From Candidatus Thalassarchaeaceae archaeon (GTDB lineage Archaea > Thermoplasmatota > Poseidoniia > Poseidoniales > Thalassarchaeaceae): a stretch of 44,255 nt of DNA. The notes under the pieces were generated by a model. That model was not told the DNA's origin. It searched no databases and saw only the letters and a program-made list of their open reading frames with translations. Numbering within the stretch: the first letter of the stretch is position 1; the number at the start of each line of letters is the position of its first letter. The stretch spans positions 1 to 44,255 of the forward strand of contig JAQXEV010000072.1 in the NCBI GenBank assembly GCA_029250665.1. Reading direction: 5' to 3'. The position numbers and the translations under genes were made by a program. Of this stretch, positions 1 through 43,321 are shown one piece after another.

Positions 1-491
1 AGGTTGAGCAATTCAGCCTTACCTCCAGAGTCCCCTTTGATGGTCGCAATTTTCTCTTCCTCGGGGGAGAGAACTTTGTCGATACGATCTTCAGATAACT
101 TTGCGAAACTACCTGAAAGATGGTCGACTTCGTCGAGTAAAACGATTGTTTTCATCGAATCAGTATTCCCTCCGGAGAAAGCGGCTAACGAAATGTGCTG
201 GCTGCCCCGAGTAGCAGCCCTTCGGATGGCTGCTGCGTTGCGTTCTTCAGAGGCATTCAGTTCGATAATAGACCAACCACGCTCCTTTGCCACTGCTTTG
301 GCCAGCGTGGTTTTGCCAACGCCAGGCGGCCCTGAGAGCATTATACCGCGTTTGTCCGGGACGCGACCTTTGTCCCAACGATCGAGCCATTGGGCTATGA
401 GTCGAAGTTGTGAATCATTACCTTCCATCTCACCCATGCGTGTCGGACGGTACTTCTCCGTCCAGTCTTCGAGGGTCTCGGCCGCGCTCAC
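1..491 (-). CDS. rfcL: Replication factor C large subunit (clamp loader AAA+ ATPase), partial; C-terminus runs off the window
   Basis: The minus-strand frame antisense to ORF 4..519 reads V(M)SAAETLEDWTEKYRPTRMGEMEGNDSQLRLIAQWLDRWDKGRVPDKRGIMLSGPPGVGKTTLAKAVAKERGWSIIELNASEQRNAAAIRKAA...KTIVLLDEVDHLSG; Walker A GPPGVGKTT, Walker B LLDEVD; GTG start at 491-489. Confidence 0.93.
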   Translation of the reverse strand, partial: MSAAETLEDWTEKYRPTRMGEMEGNDSQLRLIAQWLDRWDKGRVPDKRGIMLSGPPGVGKTTLAKAVAKERGWSIIELNASEERNAAAIRRAATRGSQHISLAAFSGGNTDSMKTIVLLDEVDHLSGSFAKLSEDRIDKVLSPEEEKIATIKGDSGGKAELLN

Positions 492-555
492 GACACACCC
501 CTATCGTGGAGCCTCATGAAGATTGGTGGTCGGCTTCGACTGGAGCAGACGGATT

Positions 556-2385
556 TCAGAATAATTCCTGAATTGTGCCGGCAGCCATTCGTTCGAGAAT
601 TTCGTCGACGAAGGAGCGAACCTGCATCTGGTCGTCGCGCCTTCGAATCGTCACGCTACCATCCTTTAACGAGGTGTGGTCGACGGTCAGAGCCCATGGG
701 ATTCCAATCTCGTCGGCGCGTGCGTAACGCCTTCCAATCGATTTACTCGAATCCATCTCAGCGCGCGCCCGTGGTAGCGAATTGATGGCAGAAGTGATCT
801 CTCTAGCCAGTTCGGGCATTCCCTCCTTATCGAAGAGTGGAAGCACCACACAATCGACGCTTGAAATGCCTTCAGCGAGCCTCAGGAAAGTGTAGTCCTC
901 TCCTTCCTTCTGAGCTTCTTCGTAAGCGTGATCGAGGACATGCCAGATGATGCGATCGATACCAAAAGCCGGCTCGATGACGTGAGGTGTGAACCACTCG
1001 CCACTAACGTTAGCAGTCTCCGTCCGGCGCTCAACCATGCTGGAATCAATAGTAACACTGCGCCCATCTGACAATTGCAACTCGAATGGCAATTCATCTG
1101 GCAATTCACTCAGAGCCTCAAGAGCAGCAACTACAGCCCCCGCGTCTGCTCTGAATGTTGGACCGACTACCGCGCCATTCGGTGCTAATCTCTCCACGGT
1201 CTGCGTACGAGGTTCAGCGAATTGCCTCCAAGCGCGCAATCCCTTGGCCTTCGAGTGCGCCTCGTGACTTTCCAAGTCGTGACAAGTCCGATTTGCAATC
1301 CCAACGCACTCGATCCATCCATGCTCACCATGGATCTCACAATCCCAGCAATCCGATGCGTAATGTGCCATCTCTGTGCTAGCATGCTGGCGGAAGCGAA
1401 TCTGTGCCGGATCGATTCCAACCTCAACAAGGAAATCCCAAGTCCGCGCTAGGAACCAAGCAACGGTAGAGTGTCTGACGATGCCAGCATCGAGGGCAGA
1501 TCCGAACCCCATTCTAGTCTCACCAGCATATGGCCCGTCTGGGTCAGGAACTAGGGTGATAATCTCGGTGCGGCGAGCGAGGTCAACGTGTGGGGGATTT
1601 TCTGGGTCGATGAAGTACTCGAGTTCAGCCATATTGAATTCGCGAAGCCGAATCATTCCCTGCCTCGGGCTTATCTCGTTGCGGTATCCCTTTCCAGTTT
1701 GAATCGCTCCGAAGGGCAGCTTTTGTCGAAAGTGCCGATACAGCGCAGGATAGAGCATGAACATGCCCTGTGCTGTCTCGGGTCGCATGAATGCTGTACG
1801 ACCCGAGCTCATAGCGCCTATTTGGGTCGAGAACATCAGATTCATCGGTTGAGCTGCAGTCCAAGCAGCATCTGAGCACGATGGGCATTCTATTCCTGAT
1901 GCGAGAAGCCCATCGACGGCGTCCGCTGCGAGTGAATCTGCGTTTGGATGTAGATGCTCTACCAAGTGATCAGCACGGAAGGCCGAGCCACAAGCTCGGC
2001 ATTCAGTCATCAAATCGTTGAATTCCCCGACGTGACCACTAGCAACCAAAACGGCCTCAGGAGTTATCGTCGGTGAGTCAATTTCGACAATGTCGCCGTG
2101 ACTCAACCAGTGGTCAATCCATTTCTGAGTCAGACGACGACGAATCGCAGCGCCGACCGGCCCGTAATCAATGAGTCCAGAAACTCCACCATAGATGTCG
2201 AAGGCTGGCAGCACTATGCCGCGCCGCCTCAGCATCGCCGACAATCTATCGAGCCGCCTCTCCTCAGCCATCTCTAACGGCGAGGCGACCGTCCGCCTGT
2301 CTTTCAAGCCATCCTCAAACCATTGCCCAAGAACACCAGACTGAGCACCTGATGAGTTAGAGCCGGAAGACCCTAAATTCACCAT
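556..2385 (-). CDS. glyS: Glycyl-tRNA synthetase (archaeal/eukaryotic-type homodimer)
   Basis: 609-aa ORF with class II aaRS motifs: RRRGIVLPAFDIYGGVSGLIDYGPVGAAIRRRLTQKWIDHW, MRPETAQGMF, FGAIQTGKGYRNEISPRQGMIRLREFNMAELEYF, ERRTETANVSGEWFTPHVIEPAFGIDRI. Confidence 0.96.
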   Translation of the reverse strand: MVNLGSSGSNSSGAQSGVLGQWFEDGLKDRRTVASPLEMAEERRLDRLSAMLRRRGIVLPAFDIYGGVSGLIDYGPVGAAIRRRLTQKWIDHWLSHGDIVEIDSPTITPEAVLVASGHVGEFNDLMTECRACGSAFRADHLVEHLHPNADSLAADAVDGLLASGIECPSCSDAAWTAAQPMNLMFSTQIGAMSSGRTAFMRPETAQGMFMLYPALYRHFRQKLPFGAIQTGKGYRNEISPRQGMIRLREFNMAELEYFIDPENPPHVDLARRTEIITLVPDPDGPYAGETRMGFGSALDAGIVRHSTVAWFLARTWDFLVEVGIDPAQIRFRQHASTEMAHYASDCWDCEIHGEHGWIECVGIANRTCHDLESHEAHSKAKGLRAWRQFAEPRTQTVERLAPNGAVVGPTFRADAGAVVAALEALSELPDELPFELQLSDGRSVTIDSSMVERRTETANVSGEWFTPHVIEPAFGIDRIIWHVLDHAYEEAQKEGEDYTFLRLAEGISSVDCVVLPLFDKEGMPELAREITSAINSLPRARAEMDSSKSIGRRYARADEIGIPWALTVDHTSLKDGSVTIRRRDDQMQVRSFVDEILERMAAGTIQELF

Positions 2386-27624: not shown

Positions 27625-29322
27625 TTAGTTGATTCTAACGAGTTGGAAGTCTGTCATATCTCGCAGAAGTTCAACTGCCGGCGATTCATTTAGAGAATCG
27701 AGGCAGTCGTGAGCGATTTTGTGGTGTTCCATGGCTCTGTCGAGGGCATAGCGAATCGAACCATTCTCTTCTAATTCAGCAACAGCGTTTGCCAATTCTT
27801 CATTCGGGTCTGACTCTGTGCCGAACAATTTGCGAAATGTCGGTAGGTCAGCCCCACTCTCAAGTGCATGGATAGCAATCAGTGTGCGCTTGCCCTGAAC
27901 GATATCAGAGCCAGCCGGCTTACCCAGTGTCTCTGTATCGCTGACCATATCGATATAATCGTCCATAATTTGGAAGCACAGACCCAAATTGAGGCCCCAC
28001 TTAGCCATGTTATCGACGGTCTTACTATCAGCACCAGCCAGAATCGCTCCGGTTTCAGCACAAGTTTCGAACATTGCACTGGTTTTACCTGCGATCATCG
28101 CGATGTATTCATCCTCGGAGACAGTATCACGATCCTCGAATTCGAAATCTTCCTGTTGGCCCTCGGCAACTCGCCTTACCATTTCGCCAATGGTACTGAC
28201 GACGTGGCGAAGTTGTGAGTCTTCGATGTGCTCGCTATCGGCGAGCATCTCGAAGCCTAGGGCAAGCATGGCATCGCCTGCATTAATCGCAGTCGCATCA
28301 TCATAGGCGATGTGCACAGCATCTAATCCGCGGCGTATTGGATCTTGATCCATTATATCGTCATGAACCAAAGTGAAATTGTGTATGATTTCGATACAAG
28401 CTCCTAACGTGTAATGACCTTCATGGCCATTCCCAACAGCATCACCTACGAGGCGTGGCATAATTGCACGCAATCTTTTGCCACCACCGGTGAAAAGGTG
28501 TGACATAGCGCCTCGCAGTCGTTTTTGCTGAATCTTTCTAAGATTCTCCTGAATGACTCCTTCGACGATGTCGCGGTGTTTTCCCAAAGCGGCTAGGACA
28601 TTAGCAGCAGAATCAGAGGGATGCGTCACGGACAATTCCCCACACCTGATTATGTCCGTGCGTGCATTAGAGATTACTTCATCGATGTCTGCATCGCCCC
28701 CATCTAGGTAATTATCGAATATTGCCTCAAACCATGGCGCAACCAATTGGCTCTTCCATCGTCCTTGTCGCGCCATCATTGCTTTCAATCCAGCATCATC
28801 CAACCAATCGATGGCTTGAATCTCATTTCGGTTGAAATCAACTTCACAATCAGCCTTCACAATCATCACGTGATCAATCTCATGTTCGACCCACTCTGCA
28901 TTCCACCGACACTTGTATTCAAATCGGCCAATATGATTGAAATCCCACGAGTCAGTAACTGAGCGAGGGATGCCAAGTTCTTGCTCTAATTTTCGCCGTG
29001 CAGCCTCTTTTACTCCCTCGACCGCATCCCCATTTTCTCCGGCTATGTCCAGAGGATGACTGCAACACGAATTAGCCCAGACTCCTGGAAATGTGATTTT
29101 CTCAGAGGCACGTTGTTGGACAAGAAGACGGCCGTTTGAATCATAAATCAGCACACTGAAAGCACGGTGGCGAATACCCTCTCCAAGATGTGTCTGTAAT
29201 TTGCTTGCCGTATCAATCACAGCATCGTCCTCATCGAGACAGAGGCAAGCCTCTGCCATCATCCCAGCTTGGGATGAGTCGTGCGCGGTGAGTGCGCGGT
29301 CTGAATCAGACATATCTCTCAA
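27625..29322 (-). CDS. Fusion protein: type I isopentenyl-diphosphate delta-isomerase (Nudix) + trans-prenyl diphosphate synthase (GGPPS-like)
   Basis: 565 aa; N-half HRAFSVLIYDSNGRLLVQQRASEKITFPGVWANSCCSHPLDIAGENGDAVEGVKEAARRKLEQELGI; C-half GGGKRLRAIMPRLVGDAVG, LVHDDIMDQDPIRRG (FARM), LCFQIMDDYIDMVSDTETLGKPAGSDIVQGKRT (SARM). Confidence 0.94.
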   Translation of the reverse strand: MRDMSDSDRALTAHDSSQAGMMAEACLCLDEDDAVIDTASKLQTHLGEGIRHRAFSVLIYDSNGRLLVQQRASEKITFPGVWANSCCSHPLDIAGENGDAVEGVKEAARRKLEQELGIPRSVTDSWDFNHIGRFEYKCRWNAEWVEHEIDHVMIVKADCEVDFNRNEIQAIDWLDDAGLKAMMARQGRWKSQLVAPWFEAIFDNYLDGGDADIDEVISNARTDIIRCGELSVTHPSDSAANVLAALGKHRDIVEGVIQENLRKIQQKRLRGAMSHLFTGGGKRLRAIMPRLVGDAVGNGHEGHYTLGACIEIIHNFTLVHDDIMDQDPIRRGLDAVHIAYDDATAINAGDAMLALGFEMLADSEHIEDSQLRHVVSTIGEMVRRVAEGQQEDFEFEDRDTVSEDEYIAMIAGKTSAMFETCAETGAILAGADSKTVDNMAKWGLNLGLCFQIMDDYIDMVSDTETLGKPAGSDIVQGKRTLIAIHALESGADLPTFRKLFGTESDPNEELANAVAELEENGSIRYALDRAMEHHKIAHDCLDSLNESPAVELLRDMTDFQLVRIN

Positions 29323-40407: not shown

Positions 40408-40887
40408 TCATTCTGCGTAGTCCAACCGCTTACTAGCAACCCATTCAAGAAGGTCGAGAGCAACCTCGCATGATTCCGCAACAACGACTTCATCATCGTT
40501 GACATACTCTTCCAGCACAGACAATGCTGTTCTATCACCAATCGCTCCAAGTGCTTCTGCTGCTTCGTGACGGACCATCACATCTTCATCAGCATCAGCT
40601 AACCTATCGATGAGATGTGGTACAGCATGTGAATCTTGCATTTGACCCATGACATAAGCGATCTCATGTTTCAGAAGTGCTGACTTGGAGGCAAAGGCCG
40701 CAGCAAGTGCCTCTACCGAATCCTTCCCTCCAATATTTCTCAGAGCAAATAGAGCTCGCATGCGCTGGAACATCTTCTCATCTTCATTACAAATCGTGTT
40801 CCGTAATGTTGCGACTTTGTTGTCTTCACTTGGAGGCGCAGGGTCGACTGAATCGAATTCGGACCTCTCAGGTATATTCTCAGTCAT
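40408..40887 (-). CDS. HEAT-repeat protein resembling a half-length deoxyhypusine hydroxylase (DOHH-like)
   Basis: 159 aa; SVDPAPPSEDNKVATLRN...MFQRMRALFALRNIGGKDSVEALAAAFASKSALLKHEIAYVMGQMQDSHAVPHLIDRLADADEDVMVRHEAAEALGAIGDRTALSVLEEYVNDDEVVVAESCEVALDLLEW; HE pairs H74-E75 and H107-E108, 33 residues apart. Confidence 0.8.
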   Translation of the reverse strand: MTENIPERSEFDSVDPAPPSEDNKVATLRNTICNEDEKMFQRMRALFALRNIGGKDSVEALAAAFASKSALLKHEIAYVMGQMQDSHAVPHLIDRLADADEDVMVRHEAAEALGAIGDRTALSVLEEYVNDDEVVVAESCEVALDLLEWVASKRLDYAE

Positions 40888-41745
40888 TTATTCAACTCCA
40901 ATGAATTCGATTGAATCCGTTTCCAATCCAGCATCAATCATACCAATTCGCTGCCCTTCTTTCAAAAATAATCGAATCGCAGCTCGACCTTCAGGCCCGT
41001 AATCCAGTGTTCTTTTGTTGACGTACATCTGAACAAATTCCCGATTCGTATCATCATCGATACCACGACCCCATGATTTAGCAAATTCCAGAGCCGCGTC
41101 AGGATTCTCAAGTGAGTGTTCGATGGAACGCTTCACGTCTTGGGATAATTGGAGACACAATTCTTCCCCGAGATCTCTCCTTACCACATTTCCACCTAGC
41201 GGTAGTGGTAGTCCAGTCTTCTCATTCCACCATACTCCTAGGTCCAGAACGAGATGAACTCCCTCGTCTTTCCAAGTGAGTTGGCCTTCATGAATAATCA
41301 AACCGACATCGTAGATTCCTGCCTTGACGGCCGGAAGTATTTCGTCAAAGGGAACTACATCTACCTCGACTTCACCCCAAGCAAGTCTTAGCGCGAGATA
41401 CGCAGAGGTATCGAGCCCGGGAATAGCGATTTTGCATGACTTCGCATCCGTCTCATTCATCGGTGAATTAGAAATCAACATAGGGCCATAGCCCTCGCCC
41501 ATCGATGCACCGCAATTCATCAAGACATAATCGTCTACAATACGTGGGAAGGAATGTATGCTTACAGCTGAGATTTCGTATTCCTTGGTTAGTGCCTTCT
41601 CATTCAGAGTTTGTATGTCCAAAAGCACGTGTTCGTAGGTCCTACCTGGTGTTTCGAAAGCACCAGTTGTCAGGGCATGAAACATGAAAGCATCATCAGG
41701 ATCTGGAGAATGCCCGACCCGAATATGTACTCCGGCTTGCTCCAT
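40888..41745 (-). CDS. mqnD: 1,4-dihydroxy-6-naphthoate synthase (MqnD)
   Basis: 285 aa; IRVGHSPDPDDAFMFHALTTGAFETPG, LNEKALTKEYEISAVSIHSFPRIVDDYVLMNCGASMGEGYGPMLIS, IAIPGLDTSAYLALRL, GLIIHEGQLTW. Confidence 0.92.
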   Translation of the reverse strand: MEQAGVHIRVGHSPDPDDAFMFHALTTGAFETPGRTYEHVLLDIQTLNEKALTKEYEISAVSIHSFPRIVDDYVLMNCGASMGEGYGPMLISNSPMNETDAKSCKIAIPGLDTSAYLALRLAWGEVEVDVVPFDEILPAVKAGIYDVGLIIHEGQLTWKDEGVHLVLDLGVWWNEKTGLPLPLGGNVVRRDLGEELCLQLSQDVKRSIEHSLENPDAALEFAKSWGRGIDDDTNREFVQMYVNKRTLDYGPEGRAAIRLFLKEGQRIGMIDAGLETDSIEFIGVE

Positions 41746-42106: not shown

Positions 42107-43321
42107 GTGCTCGTGATGGAAGGTTGGAGCAGGTATGCCCTGCGATTCTCTCGATTTTACAGGTCTCTTTCAAAAGATGACTTGTGGACTCCTTCTCGCT
42201 TGAGAAATCGAGAATGGATGTTCATTCATTGGGGTGATAAACCGGTTGATAGACATCGAGGCTTTTCTTCTGACGAATCGCTTCTTGGATACTTGCAACA
42301 AAGAGGCCCCCATTCATGTTTCCACAGTACCGCTTACTATCGACACCCATTGGAACGAAAAATGATTGACAAGGATTGGAGAGGAGCGGATTTAATTTTC
42401 GACCTTGACGGTGACCACCTTCCTGGAGTTTCTGATGCAGATTTCCCAGGGATGTTAGAATTGATTCATGAACAGGCATGGAGTCTTTGGAATGACTTTT
42501 TAGAACCCGAATTCAATATGAAGAGAGAGTTTGCACAATTCACATTTTCAGGCCACAGAGGATTTCACATTCATGTCAGAGATCCCGCTTTGATGGGTAT
42601 GGATTCTAATGCTAGAAGGGAGATTGTCAATTACATCCGAGGAGAAGGTTTGGAAGTTAATGCGGTTTTATCCGGAGATAAAAGTGGTTGGAGGGATCGC
42701 ATTGAAGTTGGAATGCAAAGCGTATTGGATAAATTGCGTATGATCGCTGAGAAGGAGTCTGGAGGTACAGCGATAATGGAGGAATTCTACGGAATTTTAA
42801 ATGGTAATTCAGCCTCAAAAAGAGGAGGGAAATCTGGAGTCAGTAAGGCACGAATAAAATCGCTTGCTGAATCAACCACATCAGAGGAGCGAATTAAGAG
42901 ATTGAGAAGCGATCATTCGCTCTTGGTATTTGGAAAAGAAACCCCTGCGTTTTGGGATCTTGTGAAGGGCGATAGATCCGTAGTCTTGGGAACTGCTGGG
43001 GAGACTGATGAGAACGTTACGGTTGATGTGAAGCGAGTCATTCGTCATCTAGGTAGCTTACATGGAAAATGTGGGCTTCGAGTTACAGAAATTCCATTCG
43101 AAAGACTCGATCCTGACGGTTCCAATCCATTCCGCCCACTCGATGAAGCAGTCGTGCTCAAAGGAGGCGCTGATTCCCGAGTTGAACTCTTACGCGACGA
43201 CATTACAGCGAGATTAGGCGATCGGGAGGTTTCGGGAGGAACTGGGGATGTATACAGCGTTAACGATGCCATGTGCACCTTCCTGTGTTTGAAGGGCTGG
43301 GCACGACAATTACCTGAATGA
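42107..43321 (+). CDS. priS: DNA primase small (catalytic) subunit PriS; start may be ATG 42116
   Basis: 404 aa; WMFIHWGDKPVDRHRGF, GADLIFDLDGDHLPG (DxD), FAQFTFSGHRGFHIHVRDP, VNAVLSGDKSGWRDRIE, VDVKRVIRHLGSLHGKCGLRVTEI. Confidence 0.93.
   Translation: MLVMEGWSRYALRFSRFYRSLSKDDLWTPSRLRNREWMFIHWGDKPVDRHRGFSSDESLLGYLQQRGPHSCFHSTAYYRHPLERKMIDKDWRGADLIFDLDGDHLPGVSDADFPGMLELIHEQAWSLWNDFLEPEFNMKREFAQFTFSGHRGFHIHVRDPALMGMDSNARREIVNYIRGEGLEVNAVLSGDKSGWRDRIEVGMQSVLDKLRMIAEKESGGTAIMEEFYGILNGNSASKRGGKSGVSKARIKSLAESTTSEERIKRLRSDHSLLVFGKETPAFWDLVKGDRSVVLGTAGETDENVTVDVKRVIRHLGSLHGKCGLRVTEIPFERLDPDGSNPFRPLDEAVVLKGGADSRVELLRDDITARLGDREVSGGTGDVYSVNDAMCTFLCLKGWARQLPE

Follow-up and report, generated by a model that had tools for sequence, protein, structure and literature searches.

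The window analyzed here, a 44,255-nt stretch of DNA taken at its full length, contains an ATG-started ORF on the minus strand (positions 40408–40887) that encodes a protein of 159 aa with four HEAT-type helical hairpins. This protein matched both halves of human deoxyhypusine hydroxylase (DOHH) in the PDB, and we refer to it as DOHH-half. Its SVDPAPP segment (residues 13–19; 40831–40851, minus strand) aligned to the linker that precedes the second half of human DOHH (PDB ID: 4d4z). The first of two His-Glu (HE) pairs, H74-E75 (codons 40663–40668), lies with G81 in the SALLKHEIAYVMGQMQD motif (40633–40683, minus strand); the human equivalents are H56-E57 and H207-E208, with the Gly seven residues on. 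The second pair, H107-E108 (codons 40564–40569), lies in the MVRHEAAEALGAIGD motif (40534–40578, minus strand) and is equivalent to human H89-E90 and H240-E241. The spacing of the two pairs is 33 residues, and the codons of the motifs were confirmed in the DNA. The ESCEVALD motif of the last helix (40453–40476, minus strand) was common to the C-terminal half of human DOHH in the phmmer alignment, and AESCEVALDLLEW was located near the C-terminal end. The source genome encodes a single copy. A sequence-only reading of the window had described this ORF with its strand, length, HE pairs, 33-residue spacing, SVDPAPP segment, and closing motif, all of which held when the DNA was re-checked.

The same reading had placed the ORF in an apparently archaeal genome, which also held: aEF-2, PriS, and archaeal-type aminoacyl-tRNA synthetases were recognized in the window (partly by eye), and closely related loci in GTDB were labeled Poseidoniales (MGII). 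An MqnD-like (VitK2_biosynth) gene is encoded directly upstream (40888–41745, minus strand), and its stop codon adjoins the start codon of DOHH-half without a gap; it is a conserved neighbor in Poseidoniales and not part of the enzyme. An mqnA-like gene and an mqnE/C-like gene were found nearby on the other strand, the latter being the only radical-SAM MqnE/C-like gene in the stretch. The PriS gene (42107–43321, plus strand), which scored below the NCBIfam equivalog cut-offs, was a frequent neighbor of DOHH-half in Poseidoniales.

Sequence comparison showed that the homology of DOHH-half is specific to DOHH, well past what chance would produce, and lies above that to generic HEAT proteins. In a phmmer search against all PDB chains, the best match was human DOHH (E = 3.5e-74, 250.9 bits), with one alignment to the N-terminal half (117.8 bits, chain positions 11–138) and another to the C-terminal half including the SVDPAPP linker (132.1 bits, positions 145–287). 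Among natural HEAT proteins, YibA and MTH187 came next with approximately 25 bits, and no designed consensus alphaRep in the displayed alignments scored above approximately 46 bits for a domain. DOHH-half resembles DOHH/Lia1 (EC 1.14.99.29; human 4D4Z) in its HEAT hairpins, in both HE motifs of one half, in the ligand and substrate residues, and in the motifs SVDPAPP, FALRN, SAL(L/F)(K/R)HE, GQ(M/L)Q, MVRHE, and ESCEVALD, and it likewise co-occurs with deoxyhypusine synthase (DHS) and IF5A. It differs in being archaeal and without demonstrated activity, and in its size: a chain of 159 aa with four hairpins and two HE pairs, as against the 302 aa, eight hairpins, and four HE pairs of the two fused halves of human DOHH. 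EpmC/YfcM, the bacterial EF-P hydroxylase, also hydroxylates a modified lysine in a factor of the IF5A/EF-P type but is described as having a non-canonical hydroxylase structure (PMC4231759), unlike DOHH-half, and was absent among the listed matches of DOHH-half.

A competing view is that DOHH-half is an ordinary HEAT or PBS-lyase-like scaffold protein without catalytic iron. In its favor, the Pfam matches were HEAT_2, HEAT_PBS, and HEAT only (with HEAT_PBS and HEAT_2 repeats above cutoff), no NCBIfam model came near its cut-off, and neither database returned a DOHH-specific family. Because no DOHH-specific model was returned by either, we regarded both as uninformative for the identity of DOHH-half. 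The generic HEAT_2 and PBS-lyase HEAT proteins (alphaRep, YibA, MTH187, CpcE/CpcF, and NblB) share the helical-hairpin repeat superfamily with DOHH-half, but their sequence and structure scores are far under those of DOHH. The gap between DOHH (250.9 bits) and the natural HEAT proteins (approximately 25 bits), the invariance of all HE pairs, and the co-occurrence with COX1 described below make the scaffold view very unlikely.

To obtain structural information, we built an AlphaFold2 monomer model of DOHH-half on 49 native homologs. The model had a mean pLDDT of 92.3 and a pTM of 0.84, and contained eight main helices. A Foldseek search against the PDB ranked both human DOHH chains first and second (E approximately 2e-11, query-normalized TM 0.84–0.85, 49–50% identity), followed by alphaReps (E approximately 1e-4, 29–35% identity). 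The predicted fold of DOHH-half is DOHH-like, and DOHH is its best structural match.

Next, we focused on conservation. The fetched loci yielded 149 DOHH-half ORFs, corresponding to 117 distinct proteins, 113 of which were complete. H74, E75, G81, Q82, H107, E108, E111, and G114 were conserved in 100% of the 113 distinct homologs, S139 and A143 were invariant in the alignment, and D15-P16-A17-P18 was conserved at 99–100% (DPAP in 112 of 113). Among homologs matching the motif pattern, the HE pairs were spaced by 33 residues in 106 and by 32 in six. The di-iron center of DOHH is anchored by H56, H89, E90, H207, H240, and E241, and the deoxyhypusine side chain is bound by E57, E90, E208, E241, and two glycines (PMC9117371); the N-half Gly is printed there as G65, whereas our own count gives G63. 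The iron-ligand equivalents in DOHH-half are H74, H107, and E108, and the substrate-residue equivalents are E75, E108, and G81 (the Gly at HE+7), all present in 100% of the 113 sequences. Every DOHH iron and substrate residue listed in that review has an equivalent in the single archaeal half.

The median homolog length was 160 aa, and all 113 complete proteins were single-half; no two-half or multi-domain ORF was found among the extracted DOHH-half ORFs. The presence of two halves on one chain, a defining feature of canonical DOHH, is not met by DOHH-half. At two high-GC copies (L033 and L034), the long ORFs surrounding the gene were considered as possible fusions and rejected, being judged read-through frames. 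In a few Poseidoniales genomes, the copy was broken by stop codons (TAG/TAA in L040 of genome G105, TAG in G339, and TGA in L016 of G097), possibly reflecting gene decay or assembly error.

To position the archaeal protein relative to the two human halves, we compared identities and scores. DOHH-half was 46% identical to the human N half and 49% to the C half, with 40% identity between the two human halves. When the linker was left out, the 113 archaeal proteins scored on average 113.0 bits against the human N half and 111.7 bits against the human C core, as compared with 91.0 bits between human N and C. The archaeal consensus agreed at 46 of the 50 sites where the human halves agree; at sites where they differ, it matched N at 16, C at 22, and neither at 38. 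Nearly equal closeness to both halves, above that of the halves to each other, is as expected of an undivided half predating duplication. The simplest evolutionary reading, which remains an inference, is that DOHH-half resembles an undivided ancestor whose duplication and fusion gave rise to eukaryotic DOHH.

The gene might instead, though less probably, be the truncated C-terminal half of a transferred eukaryotic DOHH with the same function. Three observations can be cited for this possibility. In human DOHH, the SVDPAPP linker precedes the second half only; with the linker included, the C half scored higher than the N half (130 versus 113 bits); and a maximum-likelihood tree with the human halves, in which human was the only eukaryote, had long branches of about 3 changes per column and placed the human halves poorly (AU p = 0.27 for a clade uniting them), without settling the origin. 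Against it, removal of the linker left both halves scoring alike and above human N versus C, the differing sites were a mosaic of N-like and C-like states, and divergent copies were present outside Poseidoniales in nine sampled genomes from six further families. A slowly evolving early transfer of the C half is not excluded by these data, and archaeal ancestry and ancient transfer cannot yet be told apart.

The substrate pathway of a hydroxylase of this kind is also encoded in the genome. One aIF5A was found (L044, 128 aa), with the loop SKPGKHGSAK containing a modifiable lysine and with archaeal IF5A structures as best matches. One clear DHS was found (L001, 337 aa), which scored 273.8 bits against archaeal DHS (PDB ID: 8put), aligned to it over nearly the full length, and kept the active-site stretch SWxK as SWGK.

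We examined the distribution of DOHH-half and its relation to oxygen. Strong copies were found in 45 of 197 genomes of the phylum (Thermoplasmatota), comprising 37 of the 48 genomes of the order Poseidoniales (families f1 and f2) and eight genomes of other families; in a larger sample, 106 of 392 genomes carried the gene, nine of them outside f1 and f2. Among relatives, 232 of 387 were carriers, and the GTDB records among the best 80 of 239 loci all belonged to Poseidoniales (MGII) or to other euryarchaeal or Thermoplasmatota lineages. The sampled class-mates of family f3 and members of family f27, which we take to be probably the Thermoplasma family, gave no strong match, and no homolog was found in the viral contigs or plasmids searched. 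Several fairly complete Poseidoniales genomes lacked DOHH-half, indicating that the gene is dispensable.

DOHH requires O2. COX1 (PF00115) was present in 43 of the 45 carriers among the 197 genomes. Outside f1 and f2, it was present in 36 of 149 genomes but in all eight carriers (hypergeometric P = 6e-6, uncorrected for kinship), and in the 392-genome sample it was present in all nine carriers. Cytochrome oxidase in all nine non-Poseidoniales carriers is as expected for an O2-dependent enzyme, and host oxygen respiration, our proxy for O2 dependence, is met by the carriers as judged by COX1. COX1 without DOHH-half was common, so that oxygen looks necessary but not sufficient.

The neighboring genes raised a further alternative, namely that DOHH-half works as a DOHH-like dimeric di-iron oxygenase but on another substrate, for example in a quinone pathway of the surrounding mqnD-like, mqnA-like, and mqnE/C-like genes. 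In support, almost all Poseidoniales loci, in both families, had an mqnD-like gene as the next gene upstream, in the same orientation. However, nine Poseidoniales genomes (G179, G080, G108, G126, G185, G054, G058, G091, and G129) carried the mqnD-like gene without DOHH-half, four genomes (G022, G037, G064, and G154) carried DOHH-half without the mqnD-like gene, and the examined loci outside Poseidoniales had no adjacent mqn genes, some neighbors there being VIT1, Iso_dh, thiolase, and PCMT. Moreover, the residues with which DOHH binds the deoxyhypusine side chain do not vary among the DOHH-half sequences. We consider the quinone alternative unlikely, and an obligate role in the menaquinone (futalosine) pathway was rejected, as each gene occurs without the other. 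Given this separable presence and the different neighbors outside Poseidoniales, the adjacency of the mqnD-like gene was interpreted as a conserved operon position rather than an obligate link.

Taken as an enzyme, DOHH-half is likely a homodimeric di-iron deoxyhypusine hydroxylase in which each chain carries a single iron site, similar to the form before duplication. In the proposed mechanism, DHS of the genome would make deoxyhypusine on aIF5A, and two identical 159-aa chains would associate like the two halves of human DOHH. Each chain would supply one iron site (H74, H107, and E108) and the substrate-side residues (E75, E108, and G81), the paired chains would form a peroxo-di-iron cavity, and the dimer would then hydroxylate deoxyhypusine. 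The analysis shows that DOHH-half has DOHH-specific homology and the predicted fold, that its ligand equivalents are invariant, that the genome encodes DHS and aIF5A, and that the protein occurs in lineages that respire. The dimer, iron, O2 chemistry, substrate, and activity are inferred, with no biochemical data. The sequence-only reading had inferred a possible archaeal hydroxylase built as a homodimer of half-units, which is supported at the sequence level; homodimerization, iron binding, and hydroxylase activity remain inferred, since only the monomer fold was modeled. The sequence-level checks it had proposed, comparison with generic HEAT families and a search of the genome for DHS and the aIF5A lysine, both favored it, and its idea of an evolutionary intermediate was in line with the pattern of similarity to both halves.

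Hypusine or deoxyhypusine has reportedly been known in archaea since 1990, and there are reports of hypusine in Crenarchaeota and perhaps in Thermoplasma (PMC5178350, PMC9599864). In the open-access literature searched (2012–2021), the archaeal hypusine pathway is stated as unsolved. No DOHH orthologue was found in any archaeal genome or proteome as of 2016 (PMC5178350), and the same absence is stated in PMC3306375 (2012) and PMC8153317 (2021); the statement of the sequence-only reading that no archaeal DOHH was known agrees with these three papers and with PMC6105217. We found no later report of an archaeal DOHH in this literature; subscription papers and preprints were outside the scope of the search, and prior recognition is not excluded. 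In view of these reports, and of the lack of a strong match in the sampled f27 genomes, archaea may have another route to hypusine besides DOHH-half. The archaeal hydroxylase reported missing has a strong candidate in DOHH-half, which, as a specific, easily expressed 159-aa protein of abundant ocean archaea, makes the unsolved pathway directly testable. On balance we lean, with some reserve, toward a bolder reading, in which it would be the first deoxyhypusine hydroxylase from archaea, built as a homodimer of half-units and keeping the architecture that preceded duplication. In aerobic archaeal lineages, hypusine hydroxylation would then either be older than eukaryotes or have been passed between archaea and early eukaryotes. 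The single-half form also offers a natural model for the origin of a di-iron enzyme through gene duplication and fusion.

Two further genes were observed. A second, divergent DHS-family protein (L002, on contig C117 of genome G000, positions 413–1360, minus strand) adjoins AdoMet decarboxylase and may serve polyamine synthesis. In the window, a 565-aa ORF (27625–29322, minus strand) appeared by eye to encode a Nudix-type isopentenyl diphosphate isomerase joined to a polyprenyl diphosphate synthase.
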